A program made the translations under genes and the position numbers. Positions 1,578 through 62,771 of a stretch of DNA of 64,000 bases are shown here, piece by piece. The stretch comes from Siphonodentalium dalli. Lineage: Eukaryota > Mollusca > Scaphopoda > Gadilida > Siphonodentaliidae. The notes under the pieces were generated by a model that was given only the letters and a program-made list of their open reading frames with translations, was not told the origin of the DNA and ran no database searches. Within the stretch, counting starts at the first letter, position 1; each line of letters opens with the position of its first letter. The stretch lies in contig CP136061.1 in NCBI GenBank assembly GCA_032622095.1, forward strand, positions 192,826,369 through 192,890,368, written 5' to 3'.

Positions 1578-1685
1578 CTCATATTGCTTGTTCTCAAATG
1601 AATGCAGTAGATCTCTAAGCTTATTTTTACAAGCATCCTTGTTCAAAGAATCAGATATTGGCAGCTGCTTCTCCCAGTATTCTTT
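1578..1685 (-). CDS. LAS1L: LAS1L coding exon 6
   Basis: Acceptor AACACAG|A and donor GAG|GTGAGA; exactly 36 codons. It encodes KEYWEKQL (family: 'TYW.RQL') and then ACKNKLRDLLHSFENKQYE, matching the 'ELL.SYE.EQ' helix. There is no long acidic insert between these two blocks, unlike the vertebrate protein. The next exon should be left of the window; none was found between 1 and 1577. Confidence 0.93.
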
Positions 1686-4600
1686 CTGTGTTATGCAAAG
1701 AGAGACAGACAACCCTCAACCATGTACAGATTGTAATAATAAAATATGTTGATATTTATTACTTTTCATAGTATCATTTAACCATTTCAATACTAAAAAT
1801 AATTGATTACATTAGTAAATACTCAGAAAATAAGTTCAATAAACAGCTGTATTATATGTTCGTCTGTCTGCCATCTGCTTATATTTCCTGAACATCCCTT
1901 CAGATGAATAACGATTTCAATCCTTTTTATATATGCAAATATACACATATTTTGTTTGTTTAGTTCTATCAAAATTGAAATATTCTCCAAAATTCAAATA
2001 CATATTTATTCATTCCACAGTATGCATAACAGCTCTGCTTTGTTGTTCAATTATAAACATAACTTTCAACTTCAAAATCAGAAGCATGCCGATTTTAAGA
2101 ACACCGGGACTGGTATATAATACTTACTTTTAACCACTGAAGTGACCACTCAGCCGCTGTTTGTAGAACATCCAACGATGGCAGGTTACCGTGAGACGCT
2201 TCATGACGAATATTCACTATCCACTCAGGTACTCCAAACTGTAATAGGAAAATGAAGCTCATTTGTCTGATTAATTCATAACCTTGTTTATCACATACAG
2301 TAATGTTAGAGAACTTCCCCCCCCCCCGCCTGAATTTTTCTTACCTTAAGTATTAAGGCTTAATATGTAATGTGGCCAGTTACTCTCAATTTATTATTTA
2401 ATATGACTCCCAGAAAATACATGTTTCATTGTTGGGGGGGGGGGGGGTAAACTAGCTAATTTTCAATGAAAATTCTCCAAACTTTAATTATTGCCTTTTT
2501 GAATACATGCTTTATTGTCACCAATGATAGTTTTTCTTAGTCGCATAGCCATATCTGGCCATTAGAATGCCTCTGCTGATGAAAACAAAATACTTCCTTG
2601 TCACATTAGGGGGAGATGCGCAAGGGGGGGGGGGGGAGATGTTGTAGCACACCATTACAGTGAAAATTGCCAAAGTACTGACAGTTCGAGGACCAAAACT
2701 GGCACCTTTGAGTGACTAACACGAGAAAATTAAAACATCAAAAACAGTAACATCAGTCTAGTTGATACCCTATTTATAATTTATAACCTAAATATTTGCT
2801 TTTTGTTGAAACCATAAAGCAATAAAGTACTGTTGCTTGATTTTGAAGTGGTGGTGGTTAATCATCATTGTTTTTATAAGTAAGCGTGTGTGACTTCAGA
2901 TAAATTGTTATCCAGCCATACACAACCGAGCAACTGCTGATTAATTGTTGACGGGTTTCAGTGACATCTTGTGATATTTAGATATAAGATTGCTGACTAT
3001 GTTGGCTTGAAACTTTTTGGCCAAATGAATATATTTTTGGCTGTTTTCGAAGCAATCTGGCCATTGGCCAATTTAGCCAAGACAGCATGCACCCTGTCTG
3101 GAAAGGTGTGTTATATATCCCATGTTGATGTCTCAATCAGCCAATATAAAGCAGCCAAGATAACTGTTCCTACCATCACCTACCAGTCTGATTCTGCAAG
3201 ATGCCGTATATGTGAACTAAATTATGGAGAGACAAATAATTTTTTTTTACATTTTGAGCTGGTTATTCTTCCGGAAAAAATGTCAAAATGACCACCAATA
3301 ACCAGGACTGTTGGCGGAACAAACACGCAATTGTGGTAGATTCACGGTAACATGGTGTGACAATCGCGATCTGGAGCCTAGATTCAAAATGAAAACAAAC
3401 ATTAAGCCATTAGTTTCTTTCCATGTAACCATAACTCCAACACAATATTGTTAAAGGACAACTTAATATTCGAACTCCCAGATCACACTATATAAAATAC
3501 ATGTTGTATTAAATATCATTTGAAAGAGGAAGCTCCAAAACATTTCATTATCAACTTATCCGGTGCAATAAACTGTGAACATTGTTGTTTGTGTTGAGGT
3601 ATCGACGTGTTTTTGTGCTTAAGTTTCATCTGATTTGTTCTGCAAAGTATATAATTTTCAATGGAAGGGAAATAACTCTATATCTGAGTTTGAATTCTGT
3701 TGCATTCTGGTAGCGAGAAAGGGGAAATGTTTCTATGATTTCAGCTATTTTCTGTTACTCTATGGGCATCTTCTGAGACACAGACTCTCCAATTGGTGAT
3801 AAATTATAGTATTTTAGTCTTATTTTATGTCATACATTGCTATTAAAACCGTAAATCAAGGCACTATAAAAAAATACCTGATGGTTCAGGAGTCGATTAT
3901 TTAGGGCATTACTGTAGTTCCCTTACAAAATGTTCAGCTAATAAATTAAAACAAATGATCATGTTTGTTGAACTTATTATCTGCAAATTTCCAACAAATG
4001 AATAGGAATCCACACGCACTTATATTAACTGTTTTTCTGAACATCCCTCCAATTGAATAGTACACGCCATTCCAATGAATATTTTTAGAACTTTATAACT
4101 GGGCGGGAGAATCCATTTAATTAAGAAAGGGTTAATTTGAGAGTTAAAATCAGATAACAAAGGGTGATATATCTTCAAATCACAAATGGAATTATCCCTT
4201 CCTATACTAAATGGTTTCTCCCATTCAGTTATAAAGCTATACATTTGAATGGTCTATTATTCATCTGAAGGGGTGTTCAGGATAAACTAGCAAATGACAG
4301 TCAGACAAAAAGATAATAGAAGTGCTGAAGGATCCATATTCATTGATGGGAAATGTTCAGATAATAAGTTTAACAAATGGGTCGTTTGAAATTATTATCT
4401 GAACATTTCCTAAGGGAACTACTCGGTACTCGTCAGTGAGTATTTAGTATAGAATGGGTTAAACACCCACATAGCAAGGTTCTGAGTAGAGCTAGCACAG
4501 CAGCCTTTATGCATACCCTTTGTTTTGTACTTACATCTCGAGCAAGCCGGTGTATTGGTTGGGCAAATGCCTTCTGACCTTTGTCTGTTATAAGATTTAC

Positions 4601-7600
4601 AAATCTGTAACAAAACACCTAATAATTGTCAGAAAAAGGAAGAGGATGTTATGTGTATGCATGCCATATATACTGTAAAGTCATTTTAATTCATAGGGGT
4701 CTATTATTTGATAAATTCATAGTTTGGCCAAAGAGCCAAAAAATATTTAACAACACGTAGACAACGCAGATGACACTATACGAGAGAGGCACAAAGATAT
4801 TAGCATGTCGTAAGATGGTTGTAACAAAAAACAGAATGAAAGATGAAACATAATCAATTCATATAAAATAGCAGATCTTTTATTGTTAATATCGTATGTC
4901 ATCTGATACCTTCTCTAATAATTTGGGTAACCAGGGCTCACTATGTGCAGGTTACATAAACAATGTTATAATTACACTGTAGGCCTACTTTTGTCAGTGT
5001 GTGAAATACATGTAAAGCTGGTAGCTATTAGCACACTGATTGAATGATGCCCTATTAAAGCCAGACAACCTAGAGGTCAAGTTCCAAACGATCACTACTT
5101 GGAGCTGGTATTGTTCGACCTGTTCAGTTTGACATATACCATTCTCGACCCACGAATTCATATTCCCACTAAATGGTCTTTTTGTGAGAAACAACGAAAT
5201 ACGATGCCGATGAAATCAAGCCATTCACAGTACATGTATCAAATACAACACAATAGTTAAATTAAAATACAATTCACATCATTGATCATATTTTCACTTG
5301 CGATTGTATTCGCTATGCAACATGAATGCTGGACATTAGTTGATTGAAATTACATCACAGGCAAAAATATACCTTTTGTATTCTGATTCCCATTCATTCA
5401 TTTGTAAGGATGTTCAAAACTTAAGTTCAAGGCTGTTTGTTGAACTTATTAGCTGAAAATCCCTAAAATTGATGGGAATCAAGTAACTACTCGACACTGA
5501 GTATCCACTTATGGAAGAGATAATGATATTTTCTGCATGCTTTCGTGCTCCACACAAAACACTTGTAGTTACAAACTTCACCCATACAGCATGCAATGCA
5601 ACAAAATCACATCTATATCTTAATTGATTTTTTATTTGTTACTCTGCTCAGATTCAAAGTTTGATTTGTTAGTTGTTATTCATCATGTCATAGAGTTCCT
5701 CATCACCTACTAATATTATCATCCCGTTAGATTACTTTCTACATTTCTTACTTCTGCTTTACTTTTATCTATTATAATCTGTTCTATTCTGGTGTTTGGT
5801 AAACAATATTTAATTTTCAATTAAATACGAATTTCATATATCTAATGCAATTATAGCAATATACCCCCTGAAACATCAATGATTTCTGAAAGGTACAGGG
5901 CGAATATACTGTGGCAAATACCTTTTAACTAAATTTGACATAGTATATTCGCCAGTACCTTTCTGAAATCACAAAACACGACCCCGTTATCCCCTAACTC
6001 ACCTAATAACTGCTAGGCTGTAGTTCATTACAATAGAGTGATAATTAGCATCAAAGGTACCCTCTTCTTCTGTCTCATGATGTAACAGCAGGCATTTTAC
6101 AAAACTGTATGTGCAGTCAATCGCCACAGGAACTACATTTGGCAACCTAGATATAGAATCAAGAAAATATGTAGCCTTCAAAGTATAAAAAGATCAACTA
6201 TGAAAGTGATAAGAATGATAAGAAAGCTAGATCTGAGCAGGCATGAGAATAAGGTGCCTGTCATTTGCAGAATGAGGTCTTAAAGAATTGAAGTTCCCAA
6301 ATGGTGAATATTGTGATGTACACCCATTTGGAACCTTGATTATGCAGTGTGTCGTCTGCCAATTTGGGGATATAGAGAAACTAGACTAAAGAAGAAATAG
6401 AATTTATGTGAAGAATTTCTATAGAAATTTGATAATAAAGAAACTTTCCAGAGAAGATGAGGCATAAGTAGAATAAGGTCCCCGGAGGGTGAATTTAGCA
6501 ATTCTAGCCTGCTATTTGGGATAGTGTCACTAAATTCACCTTTTTGGGACCTAGTTCTGCAAATGTCAGGCAACTTATTCTCAGGCCTGGTTGCAGATAT
6601 TGAACAATCACATCTCCAATTATAACAGATTGACTGAAATACATGAGTACCATAGCATGAATACCATTTTGGAATATCATTAGTTAATCATCACATACAT
6701 ACATGTATGCTCCCACTGGGGTTGAATCGCTGACTTCTACATTGTATAATGGCTAACAATTAACATTTATATTACCCACTAAAACTGATAATGTGATTCC
6801 CATTTCGATTCAAAGACAATCCATTAAAATATAGTTAAAGATTCATGTATGTCTTAGAGCTTTCATCCATAGGTGTCCAGAACAATATATAGTATGTTCC
6901 ACAAACATAAATAAAACAGCCAGCAAATTAAATGGAATTAAATACTGTCCATGTGACACACATGCATCACATGGTAACCACTCAATTACCAAATGAGAAC
7001 ACAAATATGAGCCTACGTGGGACCTGATTGGCCAGAAACATTCATTTTACAATTTTGTTGTTAGGAAATTGAATCACATGTTTGGCACACAATTTCCCAT
7101 AGGAAATCCCCATGTTTTTAAAGTGGATATTCCCAGACATTTTGTTGCAGATTGTAAATGTAGCTTTTCTAGGAAATAATATTTGTTATCCTAGGCAACA
7201 ACGGGGGTACATGGAGATTTAAAACCTGGATGTTGATATTCAAAAAGAGACATCCAGGTATTAAATCTCCATGTACCCCAAGATGTTGCTGGAGATAACA
7301 ATTTTGTCCCCACAGCCTAAAAGACATATCATATACTTGTTCGTGCGTGAAACTGATAAGTTAGTATTCAGGCGCTATGCCAACTGAAGGAATGTAACAT
7401 TCTACTAACATCACCGAAAATTTGAAGCAAATCGAACATCCCATTCCATAGAAAACATCATCTGAACTATGCTCAATTGTAAATATTTACTACTCGATTC
7501 GGGACGCATCTATCGGCGATAAACTAATGAAAATGATGTCGCCACCGAGAGACACTGCATTTAATTAATATATAAGAATGACGGTGTGTGTTGTCACTTT

Positions 7601-10600
7601 GGATATAATATTTGTAAAAATTACTACTTTGAACAAGATTATTCTCCATTTCTATTTGACCACCCTACCTGAGTGTTTCACATCACTTTAATTAAAGTGT
7701 GCTTTTATAACTTCTCAGATTAATTCACACCGATAAGAATAATTCAATATGAGTATTGAGACACGACATATTTACAAATGAGAATCGGAGAACATTGTTA
7801 TAGACAGTAACTACAATATATCTACAATTCACCACTTTCACTATGTCAGCAATTGCGGTGGCCGGGATGGTGGAACCATAGCCCACTTCTCTCAGTCGGT
7901 GTAGTATCAGGCAGAAACATTATATAAACACTCCCCTTCCTGCCTCATCTCAATTAAAAGTGTCTCCCCTGAAGAAATGAGTTCAACCAATGGGTTGAAT
8001 ATATTGTCTGTGCATTTTTCCAAGGACACGCCACAATTTTCCTGGTAAAAATCAAACATTGCTCGATCGCTATGATATGCCTGTGGTCTAGTCGTGAGCA
8101 TGCGCAGTGGGTACTCCACCAGTGATTTTCCCCACCTACAAATTAAAATTGCAGTGTCTGCGGTTGCAATTACAAGGTCAATATTGTTAGGCCGATGTAT
8201 TCTCTTATATATGCAAGGCTCCCTCTGGGAGACTCACATATATAAGAGAAAGCATTGGCATAGGGTTTTCGCAAAATTTCAGGAAGCTCCAGTCATGGAA
8301 TGGTTCAAATTGATGATGTAAGTAATCACCCCAGTTTACTATTTCATGAGTTCTTATGTATTAGGAATATATCACCTCCACTGTGCACTGAGCATAGGAC
8401 GTGGAAATGTCACAAGACTATCACCAGGCCTCGAAATTTGGGATGAGCAAATTTTCATTAGCCTCTCGATCATGCAAATTGAAATGTGGGGGACGAATTT
8501 TTGTCACTATAGCATGGAAACTAAACAGAATTTATATTGAACCTTCAAAACAACTGTCCACCATGTGTCTGAGGAAGAATTTCCAGATAATGAAAGTGTC
8601 AATGACACTGTAGCTCAACTTGGAAAGGGAATAATTTAATGTGTTACAGTCAATGGAGCGATTAGGAATGTGGAAAGTTGAAATGTCTAAGCAATACTAG
8701 ATTATCGACATGAAGAGATATATATATTTAAAGTAAAATCCAAGATGGTTGCTAGTGGCTATGTTTTCGAATGAAATTCAAAAACATTTTGACAGCTTCC
8801 ATCTAGTAGATCAATATCAAGATTAATATGAAGATTGGTGATGATCGGCTGAGGGAAGTGGACTGCAGGGTGTGCCAAAGGATTTAGTCATGCAAAGAGC
8901 AAAATCTAAGATGGCTGCCAGCGGACATGATTTATGGCCGAGGGAACCCAAAATGACTCGTTCCCATCTACATGTCAATGTTAACAGCCATGACAAATTT
9001 CCTAATGATCGGACCAAAGCTATGACTTGTAGACCGTCATGCAATGAGTAAAATCCAAGATGGCTGCCAGTGGCCATGTTTACGGCCGATTGACCCCGAA
9101 ATGCCTCGTTCCCATCTACATGTCAATGTTAACATCCATGACAAATTTCATGATGATACGACCTGTAGCCTGTGTCAAATGATTTAGTCAAACAAAGAGT
9201 AAAATCCAAGATGGCTGCCAGCGACCATGTTTTATGGCCGAATTACCCCAAAATGACTCGTTCCCATCTACATGTCAATATTAACATCCAAGACAAATTT
9301 CATGATGATCAGACGAATACTCCAGCCTGTTGCCCGTGCTAATGGATTGAATTTTGAAATCCTAGATGGCCACTGGCGGCCATGTTTTTTTTCCAAATGA
9401 CCCATCCCATCTAAATGTCAATGCCCATGACAAATTTCATAATGATTGTACCAAAGGTAATACCTGTAGCACATGCCAAAGGATTTAGTCATGCAAAGAG
9501 TCAAATTCAAGATGGCTGCCAGTGGCCATGTTTTAAGGCCGTATGACCCCAATATGACTCGTTCCCATCTACATGTAATTGTTAACATTCATGACAAATT
9601 TCATGATGATCCGACCAAAGGTATGATCTGTAGCCCGTGCCAAACAATTTAGTCATGCAAAGAGTAAAATCCAAGATGGCTGCCGGTGGCCATGTTTTAT
9701 AGCTCATCGACCCCAAAATTAATTGCTCCCATCTACATGTCAATAATAACATCAACAACAATTTTCATGATGATCAACGAAAAGTAGGACCTGTAGCACG
9801 TGTTAATGGATTTAAATTTGAAATCCAAGATGGCCGCTGGCAGCCATGTTTTTTTTCCGAATGACCCTAAAATGACTCGTCCCCATCTACATGTCAATGT
9901 CAACAGCTATGATTTTATAATGATCCGACCAAAGGTATGACCTGTAGCCAGTGCTAAAGGAAATTGTTGACGAATCACACACGCACACACACCCTCATGC
10001 ACACTGGCACACACATGGACGACGGATACCAAGCCATGGCAATAGCTCAAACTTTACAAAGTAAAATTGAGCTAAAAAACCTATCTTTTTCAGAGAAGTT
10101 CTAAGTGCAAGGGAATGGCCCCAAATGCAGGAAATGGCCTTTCAGGTGCAAGCCTTGAAATAGTGTGTCTGTCATTTGCAGAATGAGGTCCCCAGAGGGT
10201 GAATTTAGTAATGCTACCCCGCATAGCGGCTAGCATCACCAAATTCACCCTCTGGGGACCTCATTCTGAAAATGACAGACACACCATTTCAAGGCTTGCT
10301 CAGGTGCAACAGCAATACGGGGTCCTGGGTAGATTCCATAATCATGACCTGAGGCCCTCACTTCTGTGATTGGATCACCATAGGAATTCAGGGGGACCTG
10401 CAAGCCTTGAAATAGTGTGTCTGTCATTTGCAGAATGAGGTCCCCAGAAAGTGCGCCAGATGGTGAATTTAGTTATGCTATTCCGCACAGCAGGCAACAT
10501 CACGAAATTCAACCTCTAGTAACCTCATTCTGCTGAGACCTCAACTGCTATGGGAGACCTAGGATCAGATTGAAGTTACCCAGTTGAAGTTGGTGATGTT

Positions 10601-13600
10601 CACCAGTCACCTCGATTATGCATTTTATCTTTGCAAATTAGGGGATACAGAAACTGAACAGAAGGGATAAAGTAACTAAAAACAATGTTAATTTGAGACT
10701 ATAGATACTTCCCAGAAGATGAGGCCTAAGCAGAATAAGGTCCCCATAGGGTGAATTTAGCCTAGCCTGATGTGTGGGGAAGTGTCAATAAATTCACCCT
10801 CTGGGGATCTCAATCTGCAAATGACAGATAAACTAGTATTTCAAGGCTTGGGGACCTGTTAACAGGTTACCACAAATTTCCCATTTGCACCAAATTTAAT
10901 GCCCTGTATCATCATATATTGTGTATTATTGGCACACTTAGAGCCATTAACTCGTTTAGGACGGGAAACGGATATATCCGTTTCCCAAAACATTACCTAC
11001 AGGACGGGAAACGGATATATCCGTTTCCCACTTCATGCACTTGTTATCAGCGAATGAATCTTTTATAATTAAATGTTTGCGCATAGTATCATGTATTTAA
11101 TATATAGGCCGATCACTCAGTGAGGGGTCCAGGAAGATGTAACCTATTTTTGGCGTCACGTGAGGGTCGCGTGACGTGATTCGTGACGTCATTGTTCCAA
11201 AATGTCGGCGCCTAGTAGCCTAATTCGTAGACGCGTAGACAAGTTTTCGGGTGGTAATCAACATGGCAGGTGAATCTTGACCACTTCAGCGGAAGGTCAA
11301 AGAAGCGATAGCAATTTAAGTATATTCATGGACCATATTTTTTGGAAATTAATTACATTTGATTCAAAATGTCGCATGCAGACATCTCGTATAGCGAAAT
11401 TACAGCCCCCAAACGCATAATTTTCCGAAAATCGGTTGCCATGTCAACCGGTCGCAATTTGGTGGTATATACCCAAATTTTTTGGAAGATTTATAGACGC
11501 ACGGATGATCACCCGTCGTATATTATGAGTTGTCACGTGGAGAATTCTATCATGACAAATAGTCTGACCCAGCATTAAATTAACGCATACATTGCTATAA
11601 AATGATCTAAAAGTAAGCATTTAACGTTAGAAAACGGGGGTTTGGTGGCCATTTTGAATGGCGCCCTCTGTCGGTGATGGGTGATTTTCGAGCAAGGTTA
11701 GTACCAGATGTTGGCAAAATATTCCTGGATCATTTAACTTTGGAAACCATTTATATTTGATTCAAAATGTCGCAAACATATCGTCATATAGCGAAATTAC
11801 AGCCCCCAGAATAATAAATTTCCGCTAATAGGTTGCTATGGCAACCGGTCGCAATTTGGTGGTATCTACCCAAAATTTCTAGAAGATTTATAGACTACGG
11901 ATGATCACCCATATAGTATGAGTTTTCACGCGGAGAATTCTGCCATCGTCTGGCCCAACATTGAATAAACGCATAAATTGATATAAAATTATATAAAAGT
12001 AAGCATTTCTGCAAACAATCTCGTCTGTGAGTAATGTTTTCTCAAAAGAATCACGTCCCAAACGAGTTAAAGAAGAAACGCATGGATTCGCCTGTAGATA
12101 GTAAAGAAAGTGATAAATCTGGGAATTTTGCATGGACATCAGGTATCATTAGGGGGTCAGGGGGGCTAAAGCCCCCCTCCCCAAAAATTTGAGTAGTGTT
12201 AGCCCCCCCCCCCCATTGGGAAAAGGTGGCAGTTAACCCAATTAAGATTTCCCGGCACCCAGTAGCCTTATCGGGGACCGTAGTCCCACCCCAAGTCGGG
12301 GGGGGGGGTGATGGCATCGCCAGTAGTGTTAATGTCGTGCAAAACTGTCATGGCAGGTTTGTTAAACAGACATTATGCCCTGCCATCTGGTCAAATTGCA
12401 TGCCTGAGATTGTGGCTGATGTTGTATAATTATGTTTAGATATTTAAATTGACTTATAGTTGCTTTATTATGCTATTAAAGTATTTTTTATTTAAATTTT
12501 CTGTTAATTTTTGTAAATGTTTATTATAAATTGACAAATTTTGCATGAAAAGGGTTTAAAATTGGACAAGTTATCCCACTCAAAATGTATATTAACATAT
12601 CCTCTTCAATTTAGTAATAGTATGGTATATAAGGGTATTCTTCAGTTATACGAGATGCATCAGCTAGTAAAATTGAAAAAAAATTCAAAATTTTTTGGCT
12701 TTATTTTGAGGATTGACACTAATTTTCAGGATGCCTCATATTGGAAAAATAAACAACTACTGCTCGATATAATCCATTTTTTATTTCAGTAAGGTCTATA
12801 TTTTGATAAAATACTATAAGAAACGCTGTGTTTCACACATATACATATATATAGGAATCAGGGAGCTAAATGTGTTCTAGAGTCGGGGAGCGAGTACACC
12901 GTGGAACCCTAAAGGTGAAGGTAACTGAAGAATGACCTTCACCTGATACATGCGACACGTTGTTAAAGGATGACATCGCGTTTATTTGATTTGTACATAA
13001 TATCTAAATAATTTAAACTGGTGAATGAATGGGGGAATGGATTTTTGTGAGCGGGAAATTTATTTAACTAGCTGCTGTAGTTCTGGATTTTTCCAGAACA
13101 AATTTGGCTGTGGGATAACCCCGTCGTACACTTGGGGATTTATTTTTAAAAGTAAACACATGACCTATGATTTTTCTTGCATTTTCGTGATCAGCTGGTG
13201 TCAATCTAGCTGGGTAAACATCACTGGTATGGCCTGCAGGCTTCAATTCAGTGAATTTGGCGGAAACGTTAACACTGTCGCCTATGGGAAACCATTTAGT
13301 TCAGTGATTCCTATAGGAAAAATATGAATTTTACGAAATTTCACGTCTCGCCATGATAAGTTGTTAATTCCATATTTTCTTATTTTCAAATGATAATGAC
13401 CACATTTTGGACAGATTTAAAGAAGAAACGCATGGATTCGCCTGTAGATAGTAAAGAAAGTGATAAATCTGGGAATTTTGCATGGACATCAGGTATCATT
13501 AGGGGGTCAGGGGGGCTAAAGCCCCCCTCCCCAAAAATTTGAGTAGTGTTAGCCCCCCCCCCCCCCCATTGGGAAAAGGTGGCAGTTAACCCAATTAAGA

Positions 13601-16600
13601 TTTCCCGGCACCCAGTAGCCTTATCGGGGACCGTAGTCCCACCCCAAGTCGGGGGGGGGGGGGGGGGGGGGGGGGTGATGGCATCGCCAGTAGTGTTAAT
13701 GTCGTGCAAAACTGTCATGGCAGGTTTGTTAAACAGACATTATGCCCTGCCATCTGGTCAAATTGCATGCCTGAGATTGTGGCTGATGTTGTATAATTAT
13801 GTTTAGATATTTAAATTGACTTATAGTTGCTTTATTATGCTATTAAAGTATTTTTTATTTAAATTTTCTGTTAATTTTTGTAAATGTTTATTATAAATTG
13901 ACAAATTTTGCATGAAAAGGGTTTAAAATTGGACAAGTTATCCCACTCAAAATGTATATTAACATATCCTCTTCAATTTAGTAATAGTATGGTATATAAG
14001 GGTATTCTTCAGTTATACGAGATGCATCAGCTAGTAAAATTGAAAAAAAAATCAAAATTTTTTGGCTTTATTTTGAGGATTGACACTAATTTTCAGGATG
14101 CCTCATATTGGAAAAATAAACAACTACTGCTCGATATAATCCATTTTTTATTTCAGTAAGGTCTATATTTTGATAAAATACTATAAGAAACGCTGTGTTT
14201 CACACATATACATATATATAGGAATCAGGGAGCTAAATGTGTTCTAGAGTCGGGGAGCGAGTACACCGTGGAACCCTAAAGGTGAAGGTAACTGAAGAAT
14301 GACCTTCACCTGATACATGCGACACGTTGTTAAAGGATGACATCGCGTTTATTTGATTTGTACATAATATCTAAATAATTTAAACTGGTGAATGAATGGG
14401 GGAATGGATTTTTGTGAGCGGGAAATTTATTTAACTAGCTGCTGTAGTTCTGGATTTTTCCAGAACAAATTTGGCTGTGGGATAACCCCGTCGTACACTT
14501 GGGGATTTATTTTTAAAAGTAAACACATGACCTATGATTTTTCTTGCATTTTCGTGATCAGCTGGTGTCAATCTAGCTGGGTAAACATCACTGGTATGGC
14601 CTGCAGGCTTCAATTCAGTTAATTTGGCGGAAACGTTAACACTGTCGCCTATGGGAAACCATTTAGTTCAGTGATTCCTATAGGAAAAATATGAATTTTA
14701 CGAAATTTCACGTCTCGCCATGATAAGTTGTTAATTCCATATTTTCTTATTTTCAAATGATAATGACCACATTTTGGACAGATTTAACTCGTTTAGGACG
14801 GGAAACGGATATATCCGTTTCCCAAAACATTACCTACAGGACGGGAAACGGATATATCCGTTTCCCACTTCATGCACTTGTTATCAGCGAATGAATCTTT
14901 TATAATTAAATGTTTGCGCATAGTATCATGTATTTAATATATAGGCCGATCACTCAGTGAGGGGTCCAGGAAGATGTAACCTATTTTTGGCGTCACGTGA
15001 GGGTCGCGTGACGTGATTCGTGACGTCATTGTTCCAAAATGTCGGCGCCTAGTAGCCTAATTCGTAGACGCGTAGACAAGTTTTCGGGTGGTAATCAACA
15101 TGGCAGGTGAATCTTGACCACTTCAGCGGAAGGTCAAAGAAGCGATAGCAATTTAAGTATATTCCTGGACCATATTTTTTGGAAATTAATTACATTTGAT
15201 TCAAAATGTCGCATGCAGACATCTCGTATAGCGAAATTACAGCCCCCAAACGCATAATTTTCCGAAAATCGGTTGCCATGTCAACCGGTCGCAATTTGGT
15301 GGTATATACCCAAATTTTTTGGAAGATTTATAGACGCACGGATGATCACCCGTCGTATATTATGAGTTGTCACGTGGAGAATTCTATCATGACAAATAGT
15401 CTGACCCAGCATTAAATTAACGCATACATTGCTATAAAATGATCTAAAAGTAAGCATTTAACGTTAGAAAACGGGGGTTTGGTGGCCATTTTGAATGGCG
15501 CCCTCTGTCGGTGATGGGTGATTTTCGAGCAAGGTTAGTACCAGATGTTGGCAAAATATTCCTGGATCATTTAACTTTGGAAACCATTTATATTTGATTC
15601 AAAATGTCGCAAACATATCGTCATATAGCGAAATTACAGCCCCCAGAATAATAAATTTCCGCTAATAGGTTGCTATGGCAACCGGTCGCAATTTGGTGGT
15701 ATCTACCCAAAATTTCTAGAAGATTTATAGACTACGGATGATCACCCATATAGTATGAGTTTTCACGCGGAGAATTCTGCCATCGTCTGGCCCAACATTG
15801 AATAAACGCATAAATTGATATAAAATTATATAAAAGTAAGCATTTCTGCAAACAATCTCGTCTGTGAGTAATGTTTTCTCAAAAGAATCACGTCCCAAAC
15901 GAGTTAACATTAACGAGAAGTTGCTTGAGAAGCAGTAATGCACTAATGCAGCGTTACTGACCATAACTCATACATGCTTACTTATCTAAACAATGGTGAT
16001 TAGATGCCGCTATTACTGATCATTGCTGTATCCTTTCTTAATCAGTAGTCAATCATTTACTGATTTGTGATTTTAAAATGACAGAACCAAAAAATAGGCC
16101 AATCAGTGTTCATTTATTTGGTCTGATATCGATTGGACTTTGTTACTGTCTTTGAAGGTTTCACGTTGGTACAAATTTCCAGTGCCTATTTTGCAATATA
16201 ACTCAATCTTGTAATTATTAACCAACTACCGGTAGCTTTCTTTGAATTTTTTCTCTTTTGCTGTGCTGTTTGTCTTTTTCATTATTACCTATTTTTGAGT
16301 TTGATTTAAGTTTTCTCAAAGATTCTATTTCTTTTTCCAGTTTGACCAAATTTTCTGAAAAATGGCCAGATATAGCTGAAAGAATTTTCAGGCCAGCGCA
16401 GACACCGGCGAGGTTCAGTTTATCTCATGCATAACTACTGACAACTAGAATGAGATAAGACAATATATTGAATTTATTGTTGTATGGCGATGGTAACCCA
16501 TTAAATAGAGAGTAATCACTTGACTGAACTGGTGACCTGAAATAATAGGCAGGGACGTTGTACAAACACGAATGTGCATTGCGATCGAGTGTTTTACAAA

Positions 16601-19600
16601 ATAGTCCCTGCCTTCGTGCCTCGAATGAATTATTTCATGTCATCAGTTCAATCAAGTAATTATTCTGTTTATTATATTCCGCTATAAATATCTTATTACC
16701 AAACATCCAAATAATACTGCCAATAAAGCAGTATAGCCATGGCAAATTGTATTTTGATTGTGCATATGAATAGATAGCTAGTTAAAGTGACATAATGGTG
16801 TTAATGATGAACAGTATATGGAGATTAGCAACTGCCAAAAAAGTCCAATTCAAATTGACGAAACAAGTGACACAACTGAAATAGAAAACAAGATGAGCAT
16901 AAAAGTACTGCTTTTATTCACATGTACACTGGTCAGAAAATTGATGATAAGAGAAGGAAAATAGACCACAAGACAATTTGTTTGTTGTAGGGTTGAAATG
17001 ATTAATCGACTCTGAATTTTGCCGTTGACTAGTTGGAACATAGTGTATTAGTTACATGTATAACGTTTTCAAGATTGATTCCGGCATAAACGGTGTTAAC
17101 TGCGCGTAAGTTACTGTAAGTAGAACATTTGGTGGCATCCGGAATTTACAGTTTTACTAGTATAGACACATACGGTGACCCGACTATTAGTATTAATTGA
17201 AAGAATGAAATTGACAACACAATGTCTCACTCGTCGTTTGAGGTCAAAGACATCACTGCGACATGATGGCAATGATTGACGCGGCTTTATCGTTTGTCGG
17301 AGACCGCTTTGATCTAGACACTGTGTATATTTTGATTGGTCTCGCACCGTCGGGTTATGATGCGACGCTGTGTGAAGGTTGCTTAAGGTGACGTCATTGG
17401 TGCTACCGTATATAAATGATACTGACATTAAGAACTGGCTATCGTATTCTACAACGTAGCCTATACTATAGGGCATATTTAGTCGGAACATTAACATTTT
17501 ATAGTGACCCTGCTTGGCACCGGTTTATTGGTGATCAGTGATCACGTGACTAAACGAAATCTCGAACGCTGATATTAAATTTAAACCTTTATAAAAGATC
17601 GTGTTTCTAATCATTATCCACCACATGTCTTACATTCAGTGTGTTGGATAAATATGAAGATGTTTACTGTATTATTTCCCAAATAAATTGGTGTCTATGC
17701 AGGGAAATGCGCTACGCAATAGACGTCATTGCATCAGTCATCAGTGTACGCCATGTACAATGAATTTTCCGTACCATGTTATGTTTGAAAGTTTTGATAT
17801 CGGGTACCGACTAGTCGACGCAACGCGACTTTTTGACCTCGACTAGTCGACTTTGAAATTCACTAATCGTTTCAACACTAGTTTGTTGAACTTATTATCT
17901 GAACATTTCCCACCAATGAATATGAATAATTCTGCTCTTATATCATCTGTTTTCTCTCTGTTGTCTGCTTTTATCACTTGAACACCCCTTCAAATGAATA
18001 ATATATCGTTCCAACGGCAATGTATAGATTTATAACTGGGTGGGAGAATCCATTCAGTATAGAAAGGGTTAATTTATCTTCACCTGCTTTTCCATGTTTG
18101 AATTCTATCTGTTGCATGTTTCTGTTTTTCTACTGTGTTTGAGTAGATCTCCTTGTAGACTTTGACATACTCAGACCTGAAGAAATAATATTAAACTAGA
18201 GTAAGAAGAACCAAAATAATAAAGAAAGAAGAATAACTTTAAAACGGAACTTGTGAACAACATCAATTTTCAGTCATTTTACAGCATCAATGATATTCCT
18301 ACCAAATTTCATTGAGATCAAGTAACCCATGTCTGAGATATATGTGTTGATGAATTGGAGGTTGTGAGAGTTCCCAGATGTTGAAAATTAACACCACGGT
18401 GTCATGTTGGTCGTGGGACATGAGATATCTCATTGTATCCATTATGTTTCAACCCTATTCCCATCAAGCAGTTTGATGACTTTGATCTATTTCTATTTTA
18501 GGTATAAATAACAACAATGAGAATGAAATAATGAGCACACAAAATTTAAGCTGGTTCAATGACATTATGTATTGAATTTTTGTGTTTACATTTAGCAACG
18601 ATGTGTTTACAACCTCCAGAGTATCAGAATTGTAATGGTGTTAAGTTATATGTCGCTTATCCCCAATACCAGATGGGCCCTACATGCCCATCTGGTATTA
18701 TTAACCCAGCTGTTGACTAATGCTGCCATTTTAGAGGCGCTTCACCAGAGCGATTTACACATACCCAACAACCAGGTCCCTATTACTCGTCTAGGTACGA
18801 TGAAGCGAGCACAGTTCAGGTGACCTTGCCCAAAGGTCACAACCTGGCTCGAGATTTGAAACAGCATGTGACTCTATACAACACACATTCTGCTGAATCC
18901 GAGATGATAGTTCACTGGCGGGCACGAACTCACGCGGGTGCGTTAACAGTGTTATATATTATAGACCTGAGTGATGTGTTTAGGCCTGTGCCAATTAAAA
19001 TTAATACAGGGGGGATTAATGCATATCATATGTAAATATGATCTATTTGCACTTAAGTGCAAATCATTTGTCCATAAGCGTAAATGATTTGCACTTAAGC
19101 CCAATGATTTGTGCTTAAGTGCAAATGATTTTCACTTAAGCATAAATATATGCGCTTAAGCGCAAATGACAAAAAATATTTGCGCTTAAGTGCAAATATT
19201 TACGTTTAAGCGCAAATATTTGTGCTAAAGCGCAAATAAGGAATAAATGTGAAAACGGCCTCACATACTTTTTATATTTTATTTATTTGCGCTCAAGCGT
19301 AAATCATTTGCACTTAAGCGCAAATATGTGTCTATCAATTTATTTGCGCTTAAAGATGGATTATCTCTTTAAATAGCAAATTTGAAATAGTTGCGTGGGT
19401 ATAAAATAAGAAATATGCATTGCAGATCCCTGTCCGGAAAGGCTTCTATCAATTAATATGATTTTATTTAGAATATTTTTATTATGAAATGAGATGATTA
19501 ATTGGGACACTTTATTGCTCTATATTTAGAAGACAATTTGGGCGATACCATATTATAACGATAGAGAGCTTTACGCTGTTCCTATAGCTATGCACCGAAC

Positions 19601-22587
19601 ATCAAATGTCCCAGATTTACGTAAGATCTGTGTGCGCACACGGTATGATTTTAGTCGTGCGACTACTGTTTTTATCACTTACGGTAGACCACCGCACACG
19701 ATGCGATCGGATCGTACGATCTGGTTGTTTACTTTCTCGTGAATACAATGGGTTACGTATTATTAACGTAGTGTATATATAGGCTATAGGTATACTAGTA
19801 GGTCTATATTTGTATTTATCGCAGATATTAAATACGAATTTACAATAAAATTTATTTTATATTACAAGTGTTTGTAGTTCTACATGTATAGACTAGTAGG
19901 CCCTATACCTTATTTAATTCCCCACACAAATTCACAATCAGATATTATTTTGACATCAATTTGCTGGTGTCCTGTCAACCTAGCTGTTTCAATTGTAGTT
20001 GTATTGTAGAGGCATGAATGCATTCCGCCGTCCAAAATATCCCGCTACTCTGACTTTGAAGGACACTGCATGGACGCCATGTTGTTGTGAAATAAAACAT
20101 GTGATCGCCGCGTGATCATATTAATAGTTGAATCTGATTGGCTACTTCGAATAAATCGTACGACTCGATCGTACGAAAATCAAATTATTTGATTCCCTGC
20201 AGGACCGATCGTGCGACAAAATATTCTGCGATTTTCTACCACACACGCTACGATTTGACCCGTAACCGGTGCCTGATATTTGTCGTATATATATCGCATC
20301 GTGTGCGGCGTGCTTTACTGGGGGATTTATTCCTTCATGCCATGTCACGGTGGCCTATATCAGTATATGCCAATAAGTAGGGACGTGACAAAAACGACGT
20401 TTTGACGTCGGTGGTTTTGACGTTGTTGTTGTACCGCGATATGCTTGTTTATGGATAATTAAGAGGTTTATTATTGGAATAACTTACTATACAGTACTGT
20501 GTGCTTGTTTATGGATAATTAAGAGGTATATTATTGGATTAACTTACTATACAGTACGGTGTGCTTGTTTATGGATAATTAAGAGGTTTATTATTGGATT
20601 AACTTACTAAACAGTACTGTGTGCTTGTTTATGGATAATTAAGAGGTTTATTATTGGACTAACTTACTACACAGTACTGTGTGCTTGTTTATGGATAATT
20701 AAGAGGTTTATTATTGGACTAACTTACTACACAGTATTGTGTGATTGTTTATGGATAATTAAGAGGTGTATTATTGAACTAAGGCCAAAAAAAATAAATT
20801 ATTTGTTTCCTATTACGGAGCGAAAAAAATCCAGGTAGGTAGGTAGGGATTTTTTTTTTGGTAATATTTTTTTATTTTTTCCCCGAACAGTTAAGAAGTA
20901 CATTAATGCTTACTCTTTATACTTGTGCTAAGGCTGTCCATGTATATTGCAAGTAACTGTTAATTTAGCACAATAATATGATAAGTATTGTCAATGTGGA
21001 CAAACAATTAAATGCCTCCCAGACACTCAACTACATGTACTTGTATGTTATTAATTCAATTCTCACTTAAATATTTGGTCATACGCCTCAGGACCTAAGA
21101 CACACCTCCACTGTCAGGATATCTCACATGCGCCTCAGACACATTGCACAGGGTGTAAATATTCCTCAGACACCCCTCAATTGCATTGAAATATAAAGTC
21201 CCACACCACACTGAAAATGGTACCACAGGCCACACCTTGACTGAGATACCACACCTCCGCATTCAAATTGCCCCCTACTTTGAAGTTCCTTATACACACT
21301 GGCATATGCATGCCTGTACGGTGTATTCACTATTCACCCAAACAAACCAGTAGATAATTTCATGTGCTTTTTAGTGCCCATCCCAGAAGGGTGTTTGATA
21401 TGGTAGACATGCAGTCAGCTTCATACTGTCTCTATACATACTAGTAACTATGCATGAACACTATGAATCCTTGATTGACTGGGAAGAGGAACTCTAAATT
21501 CTGATATAGAAAGTCTTCTACATGTACTAGTATATTGGTCTCTAACAAATAAGACTTCTTCCCATAAGACATGGGAGTATCAGTTGAACAAACAAGATTA
21601 CCACAGGCAGGTTTTAAAGACTGCAGATTTATTGGTGTTGAATGTGGAATCATCTGCACAACCACAAATGGACATGTATTTTAATAGAAGTAAATTGTTA
21701 TTGAAAATTCCATCTAAAATTATTGCTGCTTAATGTAAACATAGTATATAGTATATATTTAGAGATATAGATGTGTTTACATGCCAATTACATGCATTAA
21801 AAAAAAAAAAAATTTGAAAAAAAAAGTCCAGGTCGGCCCAATTTCGGCAGGTCGGTCGGGTAACCGGAAACACAGATGTTGTTTTTTTTGGCCTAACTTA
21901 CTATACAGTACTGTGTGCTTGTTTATGGATAATTAAGAGGTAATACACCAATATCGCAATACAGGTCAAGGTAAAATTTCTGTTCAATCGGATAATTTTT
22001 GTGAGAGTTATGACCCTTTTTCGACTTAAAGTTTTTTTAGTATAAGGCTATAGACTTGAGCACAGGCTTTGGTAGTTTTATATACCTTTTTCATGAAAAT
22101 TTTATCCTATCTTACTAATAATCTTTATTAGTAAGATAGGATAAAATTTTCATAAAAAGGTATATAAAACTACCAAAGCCTGTGCTTGAGTAATGTGTTT
22201 AGGCCTGTGCCATTTAAAATTAATTTGGGTGGGGGGTCAATGAATTTGAATTTTTATTTGCGTTTATCGCAAATGATTTTCGCTTAAATTCAAATATTTA
22301 CGATTCGGTGGTTAAACGCAAATAAGGAATACATGTGAACACGCGCCGCGGCCTCCCATAAAATCTGTGGCAGTACTGGCACTCCGAGATGTCGTCACAA
22401 AATTTCCGACGAAATATGGTTAACAGTTAATGGAGGTCTATTTAATTCAATATGCCCAAGCCAGTACTGATAATTGTGGATCTACAATGTTTTTTATCGC
22501 TGCCTTTTGATGTTTTCATGTTTTTATTCAAATGAAATACCTGTTGATCCACGGAACAACTCGCATCCCCGCCATGGACGCAGACAT
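1578..22587 (-). CDS. LAS1L: LAS1L/Las1 pre-rRNA endoribonuclease, 5' part (6 coding exons, gene continues left of the window)
   Basis: Las1 is the HEPN-fold endoribonuclease that cuts the ITS2 spacer of pre-rRNA, in complex with the NOL9/Grc3 polynucleotide kinase, during 60S maturation in the nucleolus. Six exons on the minus strand join in phase to 191 residues. Signatures in order: RVVPWIN (residues 9-15); the SEYVKVYKEIYS helix (17-28); DRIQTWKSR (39-47); LPNVVPVAIDCT (48-59); SLAVIRFVNLITDKGQK (90-106); FGVPEWIVNIRHEASH (119-134); and WLKKEYWEKQL (153-163). R129 and H134 form the HEPN Arg-x4-His catalytic motif (RHELTH in vertebrates, as remembered). All splice sites are GT-AG and every phase matches. 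Introns of 4.4, 11.9, 1.4, 2.3 and 0.4 kb are full of repeats. The C-terminal half lies left of position 1, so no stop codon or poly(A) site is visible. The identification is by recall of the family, not by a search. Confidence 0.93.
2128..2238 (-). CDS. LAS1L: LAS1L coding exon 5, carrying the HEPN catalytic motif
   Basis: Acceptor ATTACAG|T and donor AAA|GTAAGT; exactly 37 codons. It encodes FGVPEWIVNIRHEASHGNLP and then AAEWSLQWLK. The Arg-His-x3-His of the HEPN ribonuclease active site is intact. Vertebrate Las1 has Glu-Leu-Thr where this protein has Glu-Ala-Ser between the His residues. Confidence 0.96.
2239..4534. other. LAS1L intron 4
   Basis: Holds homopolymer C or G runs near 2319, 2435 and 2620. 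From about 3967 to 4435 it carries copies of the 'TTATCTGAACATTTCC' TTAA-MITE family (second copy seen at 43897-44145). The open frame at 2971-3291 has no recognisable domain or splice context and is not called. The rest is unassigned AT-rich intron. Confidence 0.5.
4535..4604 (-). CDS. LAS1L: LAS1L coding exon 4
   Basis: Acceptor TTACAG|A and donor GAT|GTAAGT. One base plus 23 codons, encoding RFVNLITDKGQKAF and PIHRLARD. This is the most recognisable Las1 stretch ('ALVRFVNLI(S/T)ER..' followed by 'L(A/R)..'). It ends in phase 0. Confidence 0.95.
4605..6002. repeat. LAS1L intron 3 with a hairpin element (5880-5971)
   Basis: Positions 5880-5971 form an inverted repeat. Its left arm begins TGATTTCTGAAAGGTAC and its right arm is the near-exact complement, around a core of about 25 bp. 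A fragment of the 'TTATCTGAACATTTCC' MITE family lies near 5395-5515. The remainder is unassigned. Confidence 0.6.
6003..6146 (-). CDS. LAS1L: LAS1L coding exon 3
   Basis: Acceptor TATATCTAG|G and donor AG|GTGAGT. One base, 47 codons and two bases. It encodes RLPNVVPVAIDCT (helix 3) through MNYSLAVIR. The open frame continues past the acceptor to 6181, but using that longer version breaks the phase with exon 2. The acceptor at 6147/6148 restores both phase and homology (WKSR-LPN). Confidence 0.93.
6236..6585. repeat. 'GAGGTCCCCAGAGGGTGAATT' hairpin family, member 1
   Basis: A unit of about 350 bp. It contains a degenerate outer pair near 6253 and 6560 and the inner hairpin AGGTCCCCGGAGGGTGAATT / AAATTCACC. 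Related members lie at 10151-10299, 10402-10540, 10725-10850 and 61345-61640. It has the structure of a non-autonomous DNA element; the family is not identified. Confidence 0.6.
7185..7303. repeat. Inverted repeat (hairpin MITE)
   Basis: The arms share GGGGTACATGGAGATTTAA and CCTGGATGT on the left and their complement on the right, with a core of about 20 bp. The outer parts (TTGTTATC.. / ..GATAACAA) are also complementary. It lies in LAS1L intron 2 (18083-6147). Confidence 0.7.
8171..8297. repeat. Partial TTAA hairpin MITE
   Basis: Carries the paired TTCTCTTATATATGC / CATATATAAGAGAA arms and the 'AGGAAGCTCCAGTCATGG' end of the family seen intact at 46051-46276. The TTAA ends are missing. 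Small open frames across it are artefacts. Confidence 0.7.
8700..9960. repeat. Tandem array, period about 155 bp, 8 units
   Basis: The phrase (A/T)AGATGG recurs at 8742, 8908, 9057, 9208, 9363, 9509, 9673 and 9828 (spacing 146-166 bp). Most copies read CCAAGATGGCTGCC. Each unit also repeats CTCGTTCCCATCTACATGTC, ATTTCATGATGATC and GATTTAGTCATGCAAAGAG. Copies are diverged, so the array is not young. The AAGATGGC core equals the textbook YY1 site. A CA-rich stretch (9966-10010) follows. Confidence 0.9.
10151..10850. repeat. Three copies of the 'GGTCCCCAGAGGGTGAATTT' hairpin family
   Basis: 10151-10299 is a near-perfect palindrome: CTTGAAATAGTGTGTCTGTC then GAGGTCCCCAGAGGGTGAAT, and the complement of both on the right. 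10402-10540 and 10725-10850 are more degenerate copies in the same orientation. Clustering of three copies within 700 bp suggests local duplication or insertion preference. Confidence 0.8.
10947..12070. mobile_element. TTAA-flanked element A, copy 1 (piggyBac-type MITE)
   Basis: 1124 bp from TTAA to TTAA. The ends read TTAACTCGTTTAGGACG on the left and CGTCCCAAACGAGTTAA on the right, i.e. inverted repeats of about 17 bp. TTAA duplication is the hallmark of piggyBac-like transposition. Two identical 24-bp palindromes (10963-10986 and 11006-11029) lie just inside the left end. No transposase can be read; the open frame at 11369-11578 is not a known domain. Confidence 0.85.
12071..13420. repeat. 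Segment B, copy 1 (tandemly duplicated, TTAA at each joint)
   Basis: 1350 bp between element A and segment B copy 2, with TTAA at both joints but no terminal inverted repeats of its own. It has C and G runs near 12209 and 12300. Its left edge reads as an open stretch of about 24 codons (KKKRMDSPVDSKESDKSG.. up to a GT) that is not identified. Confidence 0.85.
13421..14787. repeat. Segment B, copy 2
   Basis: 1367 bp, nearly identical to 12071-13420. The differences seen are in the length of the C run (near 13553) and the G run (13651-13674, about twice as long), plus single substitutions such as the GTGAATTTGG/GTTAATTTGG pair that shortens an open frame. The shared open frames (12541/13908, 13025/14392) are duplicated noncoding sequence. 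Confidence 0.9.
14784..15907. mobile_element. TTAA-flanked element A, copy 2
   Basis: 1124 bp, the same length and orientation as 10947-12070, with almost no substitutions seen (for example ATTCATGG versus ATTCCTGG). It ends in TTAA at 15904-15907. It closes the A-B-B-A block inside LAS1L intron 2. Confidence 0.88.
15908..16987. other. LAS1L intron 2, mostly unassigned; inverted repeat at 16511-16665
   Basis: The only structure seen is an inverted repeat with arms ACTTGACTGAACTGGTGACC .. AGGCAGGGAC and their complement, separated by a CGATCG-containing core. The 63-aa open frame at 16850-17041 has no family signature. Confidence 0.55.
16988..17880. mobile_element. hAT-type non-autonomous transposon with perfect 8-bp target duplication
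   Basis: 893 bp. The ends are TAGGGTTGAAATGATTAATC on the left and the complement of TAGTGTTGAAACGATTAGTG on the right. It is flanked on both sides by GTTTGTTG (16980-16987 and 17881-17888), the 8-bp duplication expected for hAT. It sits in the outer end of a 'TTGTTGAACTTATTATCTG' MITE. The 128-aa open frame on the minus strand (17111-17497) lies inside and shows no hAT transposase motif. Confidence 0.92.
17881..18075. repeat. Fragment of the 'ACTTATTATCTGAACATTTCC' MITE family
   Basis: Carries TGAACTTATTATCTGAACAT and, at the other end, CAGTATAGAAAGGGTTAA, the right terminus seen in the complete 249-bp copy at 43897-44145. The hAT element inserted at its left side. It ends about 10 bp before the donor of LAS1L exon 2. 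Confidence 0.8.
18084..18176 (-). CDS. LAS1L: LAS1L coding exon 2
   Basis: Acceptor TTTCTTCAG|G and donor AG|GTGAAG. The exon contributes one base, 30 codons and two bases, so its phase fits both exon 1 and exon 3. It encodes SEYVKVYKEIYS followed by QKHATDRIQTWKS, the family's N-terminal helical pair. The usual Glu-Trp is Glu-Tyr here. The exon lies just upstream (in the gene's direction) of a TTAA MITE whose terminal sequence starts about 10 bp into the intron. Confidence 0.92.
18177..20440. repeat. LAS1L intron 1, distal part: palindromic short repeats (19040-19350)
   Basis: Between about 19040 and 19350 the sequence is a run of imperfect copies of TTTGCGCTTAAGCGCAAA and one-base variants (TTTGCACTTAAGTGCAAA), separated by a few bases. 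Single copies recur near 22260-22325 and 23490-23590. 18662-18702 is a small hairpin (CCAGATGGGC / GCCCATCTGG). 18770-18900 resembles a tRNA-SINE-type tail ('CCTTGCCCAAAGGTCACAAC'), low confidence. A 19.6-20.3 kb stretch rich in CGTACGA/TCGTACG is not assigned. Confidence 0.65.
20441..20782. repeat. 60-bp tandem repeat, about 6 copies
   Basis: The unit begins TGCTTGTTTATGGATAATTA and continues AGAGGTTTATTATTGGA..; the period is exactly 60 bp. A further partial unit lies at 21894-21943, showing that the Harbinger-type element at 20783-21893 inserted into the array after it formed. Confidence 0.95.
20783..21893. mobile_element. PIF/Harbinger-type MITE inserted in the 60-bp array
   Basis: 1111 bp beginning GGCCAAAAAAAATAAATTAT and ending with the complement of GGCCAAAAAAAACAACATCT. 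The flanks are TAA on both sides (20780-20782 and 21894-21896), the 3-bp TWA duplication of Harbinger elements. The array sequence is continuous once the insertion is removed (GAAC-TAA-CTTA). No transposase frame was seen; 21441-21665 (minus) is an unrelated short frame. Confidence 0.88.
22059..22185. repeat. Near-perfect 127-bp palindrome
   Basis: The arms start AGCACAGGCTTTGGTAG and are complementary to the right arm for about 60 bp around a 3-bp loop in CTAATAATCTTTATTAG. It lies in intron 1 of LAS1L, about 360 bp from exon 1. Such a structure would give a long, nearly unbroken RNA hairpin. Confidence 0.93.
22541..22587 (-). CDS. LAS1L: LAS1L coding exon 1 (start codon)
   Basis: The ATG at 22587-22585 has an A at -3. 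The exon encodes 15 residues plus two bases of an Arg codon, ending RVVPWIN. This matches the short 'VVxW' N-terminus conserved in Las1 proteins, just before the (E/D)W/Y..VY helix of the next exon. The donor is AG|GTATTT. Two further in-frame ATGs at residues 5 and 8 could also serve as starts; the first was chosen because nothing rules it out. The exon is too short to find by ORF length; it was found by looking for the missing N-terminus upstream of exon 2. Confidence 0.85.
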
Positions 22588-25486: not shown

Positions 25487-27650
25487 ACACGGCACAATCG
25501 TTTTATGACAAACTTCGATAAAGGGGCTTTTTACTGAATTGGGACGACAAAAGTTGGCTTCTTCTTGTTTCATTGTATAGAGTAGACTTTGCAGGTTCAC
25601 CAGGTTGATTCACCGAATACATACGGGGATGAGATCTATACATAAAATGAGTCACAGCTCAGTCAAATTGGGACCATCAGATCAAACCGCGAACCGATTG
25701 CAAAAAGTTATTTCTTGGGTTACAAGGGGACATTAACAGTGCAAAATGGACATCCACAAATAGGGGACTTACTGCAATTTGTCAACCTCGGCGTCGCATT
25801 ACAATGTTTAGTGTGTACCAAAGTTTCCAGTTCTATAAATAAAACGCCCAGCGCTATTACAGCGCCCATGCGATACACTAATTTCTACGTTAGTATACAC
25901 CCGGGGGCGTAATGACTATTTTGACAGTTTGTTTGCTTTACTCTGGCACAGGATGGTTGGAATTGGTATGTTTAAAATTTATTATAATAAGGGACTTATG
26001 AATGGTCAGTTAAGTCCCAACCCTTTTTCGTATTTATGCTTGGTCGGAGTTTTGGTCTACTAAATCGGTGCTGTTCCACTGGCTCGGTGTTTTTCCGAAA
26101 GATAACATTTACAGATTATTTCTCTGAAAATAAATATATCTACAACAACTCGACTACTCTTGTGAGACGATACGCCCATAGTATTACGGAAGAAGTTCTG
26201 CTACAATGGTGCATGCCTAACATTATTGATGCAATATACATGGGCTTACATGCAGAACTAAGCTGTCCGATCAGTGTCAGATATGTTAGTCCAGGAGATA
26301 TTGGTCGACCTCTGCACCCCCCCCCCCCCCCAGGACTTAACTTCACCCCACTAATTTTCTTCCTTAATGTCTCTTCTAATTTTTTTCACTTGTTAACAAG
26401 AAAAAAAAGTGGCCGCAGAGACTCCAGACAAGATGGCGTCCATCATGGCGGCCATTTTTTTTAAATGCACCAGGTCTCTTTGATCGCCATTATAGTAAAG
26501 ATGATAGCACATGCGGTCTTGTTTTCCGCTCGATTCGTTATGCTAATATATAATCCTTACAAATTAGCCAAAAATCCGACACCAGAATCCAATATGGCGG
26601 CCAAGATGGCCGCCGAAATGTGAAAATATGCTATTTTTCTGACATGTTACCACCTTTCGTTTGTCTCTGTGGGAAAATGTTAGAAATTTTGCATCATGTT
26701 ATACATTTGTCATATAGAGGAGTCATTGGCGAACACATGGGGACCATAATATGCATTCATTGCGGGATATTTTTGTCCGATATCACGTTTTCCAAAATGC
26801 CGGTATCAGAGGCCAAAGCCGAATCTCCGTTAATAACGCGATGTTATGTTTCGAATCAATGAATGTTATTGCTATTATAACAACACCCATGCATATATAT
26901 TTGCAGGAGATACTCGAGCTAGGATTCCTCTTATACCTGAGTTGAGGAATATTTACCCAAATCCAAGATGGCGGCCAAAATGACCACCAGAAATAAAAAA
27001 TCGCCGAAAATCGCTGATTTTAACACCAGTGAGCATTATTGTCATGACAACTCCACACCTGCTTACTATTGTAAGATGGGAACACTTAGGCGAAGAACTT
27101 TCCTTGTACCATATCCAAATAAAAGTCCCCCAAATCCAAAATGGGGCCCACAATGGCGGACAGATTTTGAAAAATCACCGAAATTCCCTCATATTCACAT
27201 CATTGGGCATTATTGTCGAGACAAATCCACCCATGCTTACAATTGAGTTGTAAATACTGAGGTGAAGTAATTACATTACATCTCATGCAAGAAATTGTTT
27301 TCCAAATCGAAGATGGCAGCCAAAAGGGCGACCGAAATTTGAAAACAAGTCTACATTACTTTACTTTCTTACGATGGGCGTTATTGTTTCGCGATTTCTA
27401 TCCACCATTACATGTTGATATGGAATAGTGACATGAAGTATTCATTACGGTTTGGCAATTGATACTCACAGCCAAGATCGCTGCTAAATTGGCGGCTAGA
27501 AATTGAAAAGAAATCGATATTTTCACATATTAATTTCAACTTTTTGTCATAATATCGGTATGTATGGACGAAACTGTACATAAACCATCTACTAGTTCAA
27601 CTTAAAGGTATCATATCGCATAACATAGCTCGTATCCTTCTGGAAAGATG
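25487..27650. repeat. Left arm of a giant inverted repeat
   Basis: Matches the reverse complement of about 29930-31803. Similarity is very high in the middle (for example 26700-27230) and falls toward the centre. It starts at GGCACAATCGTTTT. The segment about 25740-26280 has no partner in the other arm. It contains YY1-like AAGATGGC phrases at 26430, 26603, 26965 and 27310 in a degenerate repeat of about 170 bp. The open frames in it (for example 26036-26464 and 26620-26862) recur in the other arm as repeat sequence and are not called genes. Confidence 0.9.

Positions 27651-34950: not shown

Positions 34951-62771
<27,821 letters not shown>

Follow-up and report, generated by a model that had tools for sequence, protein, structure and literature searches.

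The window, a stretch of 64,000 nucleotides of Siphonodentalium dalli DNA, carries six coding exons of a LAS1L gene at its left end, all on the minus strand. The features of the six-exon join are:

22541..22587, minus strand: LAS1L exon 1, coding part; residues 1-16, last codon split, the first ATG being the start
18084..18176, minus strand: LAS1L exon 2; residues 16-47
6003..6146, minus strand: LAS1L exon 3; residues 47-95
4535..4604, minus strand: LAS1L exon 4; residues 95-118
2128..2238, minus strand: LAS1L exon 5; residues 119-155, carrying the HEPN catalytic motif
2191..2208, minus strand: RHEASH codons (R-H-x3-H); residues 129-134, within exon 5
1578..1685, minus strand: LAS1L exon 6; residues 156-191

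Exon structure and surrounding repeats

As an earlier note on this DNA had claimed, exons of 47, 93, 144, 70, 111 and 108 bp (exons 1 to 6) join in phase, giving a stop-free reading frame of 573 bp and 191 amino acids with AG/GT borders. The exons are entered in phases 0, 2, 2, 2, 0 and 0, and the introns between them, 4364, 11937, 1398, 2296 and 442 bp long (introns 1 to 5), are GT...AG in five cases out of five. A donor-like GTGAGA directly follows exon 6 on its 3′ side, and the intron there extends past the window edge. The length of 47 bp given for exon 1 was correct but is that of the coding part only, counted from the first ATG, and not that of the whole exon. The same note had described the gene as hidden in very small exons; the sizes hold but are nothing special, since 70-144 bp is a common size for internal exons in animals. 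Long repeat-filled introns are likewise usual for a 2-Gb genome.

When the minus strand between exons 2 and 6 was scanned blindly for stop-free AG...GT intervals of three exact lengths, there were 13 of 144 bp, 28 of 70 bp and 17 of 111 bp, and the correct exon was present among the candidates for each length. With so many candidates of the same length, the exons are identified by homology and phase and not by length alone.

Several repeats lie in and around the introns; the figures for duplications, dispersed repeats and inverted pairs are taken from among the 40 longest alignments listed. Intron 2 contains nearly identical direct duplications at 10947-15907, in which 12064-13420 pairs with 13414-14787 (98.5%) and 10947-12070 with 14784-15907 (99.9%); these would stem either from nested duplication in the recent past or from an artefact of assembly. 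The same intron holds a satellite-like array (8588-10098) of units of about 150-165 bp with AAGATGGCTGCC, and related arrays occur to the left of the window, about 27-29 kb and 40-41 kb from its start. In intron 1, a 60-bp tandem array spans 20442-20782 (5.7 copies, 95% matches), with a lone extra copy of its unit at 21882-21942 (93% alike). A dispersed repeat is present in two inverted copies, 52017-59045 and 1-775 (the latter reaching about -4790 past the window), which are 95.8% alike over 4.0 kb and 95.7% alike over 1.6 kb; the intron after exon 6 contains one of them. A further copy lies at 42446-43312 (79% alike), and a separate inverted pair, 26287-27930 and 29655-31271, is 87.5% alike over about 1.7 kb. 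A second gene is indicated on the opposite (plus) strand by ORFs at 46363-46782 and 60559-60864, pieces of which match PF02820, the MBT repeat (E 3.2e-30), and PF12140, the SLED domain (E 2.9e-20); this suggests an Scm/SCML-type Polycomb gene.

Identity of the encoded protein and its catalytic motif

When the six-exon join was compared with Pfam, a single family was matched at E values up to 1, namely Las1 (PF04031), with a score of 154.7 bits and an E value of 2.2e-45. Model positions 1-149 of 149 are covered by join residues 11-161, and because the match is full-length at this E value, chance is excluded. The N-terminal Las1 signature reported earlier is thus confirmed, and the check proposed with it, a Pfam Las1 match across all exons, was passed at 154.7 bits against a curated cut-off of 22.7. 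Exons 1 and 2 had been said to escape detection by ORF length. Both are real: the score dropped to 146.3 bits without exon 1, to 122.2 bits without exon 2 and to 117.0 bits without either, and both inconspicuous exons therefore contribute. Exon 5 alone matches the family at 46.5 bits. All nine distinct PDB sequences matched at E values up to 1 are named LAS1L, LAS1, Las1 or Ribonuclease, the best being human LAS1L (9dun_C, E 2.1e-26). The join encodes a complete N-terminal HEPN ribonuclease domain and is the front part of LAS1L.

The catalytic motif of the HEPN domain is intact, reading RHEASH at residues 129-134, with R129, H130 and H134 kept. Arg129, His130 and His134 are also the catalytic residues of yeast Las1, according to PMC10942766; the residue numbers 129, 130 and 134 coincide with those of the yeast protein by chance. 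In human LAS1L the motif RHELTH aligns to RHEASH, so that R-H-x3-H stands at the equivalent place, and residues 41-190 of the human protein (26lk_A) align to join residues 9-164, the HEPN domain. Compared with human LAS1L (9dun_C, 26lk_A, 10rn_A), the join is about 30 residues shorter ahead of the domain, and the loop encoded by exon 3 is longer by six residues, which fall in two gaps of 1 and 5 residues. Within the aligned stretch, the PDB chain 10rr_A differs from 10rn_A exactly at the three catalytic residues, from which we infer that it is a dead-enzyme mutant. The fungal Las1 chains 7y18_C (E 3.5e-21) and 7y17_C (E 7.4e-14), presumably those of S. cerevisiae and C. jadinii described in PMC10942766, are more distant than human LAS1L; they share the HEPN domain with the join and, according to that paper, the catalytic Arg-His-x3-His.

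Further LAS1L exons left of the window

The window and 60 kb to its left were searched with the C-terminal half of human LAS1L, a probe of 366 residues that matches residues 318-683 of PDB 26lk_A over its full length. Coordinates left of the window continue its numbering below 1. Three places were retained:

C1:192807963-192808048, minus strand: exon A, 86 bp; match at -18315 to -18410
C1:192805785-192805979, minus strand: exon B, 195 bp; match at -20403 to -20582
C1:192792191-192792386, minus strand: candidate exon C; weak match to the human tail motif around WDTFPLG

Exons A and B were the two best matches to the probe, on the same strand and in the expected order. Exon A aligns to human residues 318-350 of 26lk_A (48% identity, E 0.018, 29.3 bits) and exon B to residues 370-431 (29% identity, E 0.002, 32.3 bits). 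Delimited by their splice sites, exon A leaves one base and exon B opens with two, giving an in-phase join through a GAG codon. Candidate exon C aligns to human SEDVRWDTFPLGRMPGQT with an E value of 7.0 and 20.8 bits, which is weak alone. It has an acceptor site. Past the matched motif the frame runs on without a stop for 49 residues to a TGA, which is overlapped by a donor-like GTGAGC; the exon would end at one or the other. Besides A and B, seven other matches had E values below that of C (0.66 to 6.8); they were spread across both strands, some inside the window and others to the left of it, and we take them to be chance.

In the real sequence, A, B and C were each the best place for their own probe segment. 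The 46.6 kb immediately left of exon 6 was subjected to 100 dinucleotide shuffles, taking the best score on that strand; the real score was reached in 0 of 100 shuffles for A, 0 of 100 for B and 2 of 100 for C. That exons A and B are LAS1L exons encoding the middle of the protein is well supported. Candidate exon C probably encodes the C-terminal tail (LCT), the part of the protein that binds NOL9/Grc3; the distance from exon 1 to C is approximately 56.8 kb, and the gene would then measure about 57 kb. The earlier reading of the six exons as a 5′ half fits these results, with further LAS1L exons lying past the window on the same strand.

The gene model remains partial. Exon A requires two bases from a preceding exon and exon 6, which ends in phase 0, supplies none, so at least one exon must be missing between them. 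In human LAS1L, 127 residues separate the aligned parts (191-317 of 26lk_A), of which exon 6 could cover 27. Searches with human segments, covering positions -34200 to 1580 on the minus strand, found no exon lying between 6 and A and none between B and C, the matches being at chance level apart from A itself. The central domain that follows HEPN was accordingly recovered in part: exons A and B match the human middle region, and these searches did not reveal the one or more exons that must precede A. Of the 18 candidates that a generic splice-site scan returned for the 20 kb adjoining the window on its left, none exceeded the threshold, and the scan was dropped when known LAS1L exons were seen to score low too. 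A regular-expression search of the same 20 kb for LAS1L C-terminal motifs gave nothing convincing; it missed exon A, which was revealed by the human probe alone.

Copy number, alternative readings and function

The species' own genome (2.23 Gb in 9 contigs) was searched in six frames, a search that is incomplete by its stated limits. The Las1 family profile gave one match among 5 scored candidates, and this was exon 5. The 191-residue protein gave seven matches at E values up to 10 among 13 candidates. Six of the seven are the six LAS1L exons, collinear on one strand with E values from 2.7e-26 to 0.885, the last being the match of exon 1 (residues 1-18), which is weak on its own. The seventh lies 26 Mb away (E 6.36, 25% identity) and looks like chance. 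No processed LAS1L copy was seen in this incomplete six-frame search, and no second Las1 locus was found among the 5 profile and 13 protein candidates scored. LAS1L here is apparently single-copy.

These results bear on whether the locus might be a decayed or fragmentary pseudogene, with the working copy elsewhere. Repeats abound in the introns and the model lacks at least one internal exon, which speaks for such a reading, but all six exons are open, their splice sites are intact and the catalytic residues are kept, and the incomplete genome search revealed no second Las1 locus among its 5 and 13 scored candidates; we consider decay very improbable. There is equally little likelihood that the exons belong to a separate short HEPN-only protein, distinct from full LAS1L and ending soon after exon 6. 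The exon due after exon 6 was not found, and exons 6 and A are not directly in phase, both of which speak for such a protein; against it stand the donor-like GTGAGA right after exon 6 and the LAS1L-like exons A and B downstream, on the same strand and in the right order. The locus could also make, besides full LAS1L, a short HEPN-only isoform ending in the long intron that follows exon 6. If true, this would provide a nuclease free of the kinase-binding tail, but no evidence points to such a product and we regard it as highly unlikely. We are nearly certain that the locus is the 5′ part of an apparently single-copy LAS1L gene with a complete HEPN domain, whose middle exons and, probably, tail exon lie leftward.

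Las1 is a HEPN ribonuclease for ITS2, which works as a Grc3-activated dimer and is bound through its tail; NOL9 is the counterpart of Grc3. In PMC10942766, fungal Las1 is described as a HEPN ribonuclease that cuts ITS2 of the pre-rRNA; it acts as a dimer which Grc3 clamps and activates, and the Las1 tail holds it to Grc3. The partner of human LAS1L is NOL9, as stated in PMC11523043. The CLP1_P profile (PF16575) gave 4 matches among 12 scored candidates in the S. dalli genome, which fall at C8:154.0 Mb and C1:215.1 Mb. These two loci may correspond to CLP1 and NOL9, the kinases to be expected with this domain, in either order. By analogy, the protein of S. dalli is most likely a Las1 endonuclease whose HEPN dimer would be held and activated by the NOL9/Grc3 kinase, and the activated dimer would most likely cut ITS2 of the pre-rRNA during maturation of the large subunit. 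The locus is presumably transcribed, and the encoded protein is predicted to have the enzyme activity and the NOL9/Grc3 partner.

The gene is an ordinary orthologue, an intron-rich animal housekeeping gene whose function is most likely the known one, and it shows no departure from known Las1. What is known of Las1 itself is unchanged. The value of the finding is one of annotation only: it provides a correct 5′ model for a conserved gene of ribosome biogenesis, in an animal genome that is large and rich in repeats and where long introns could lead automatic annotation to overlook exons 1 and 2.
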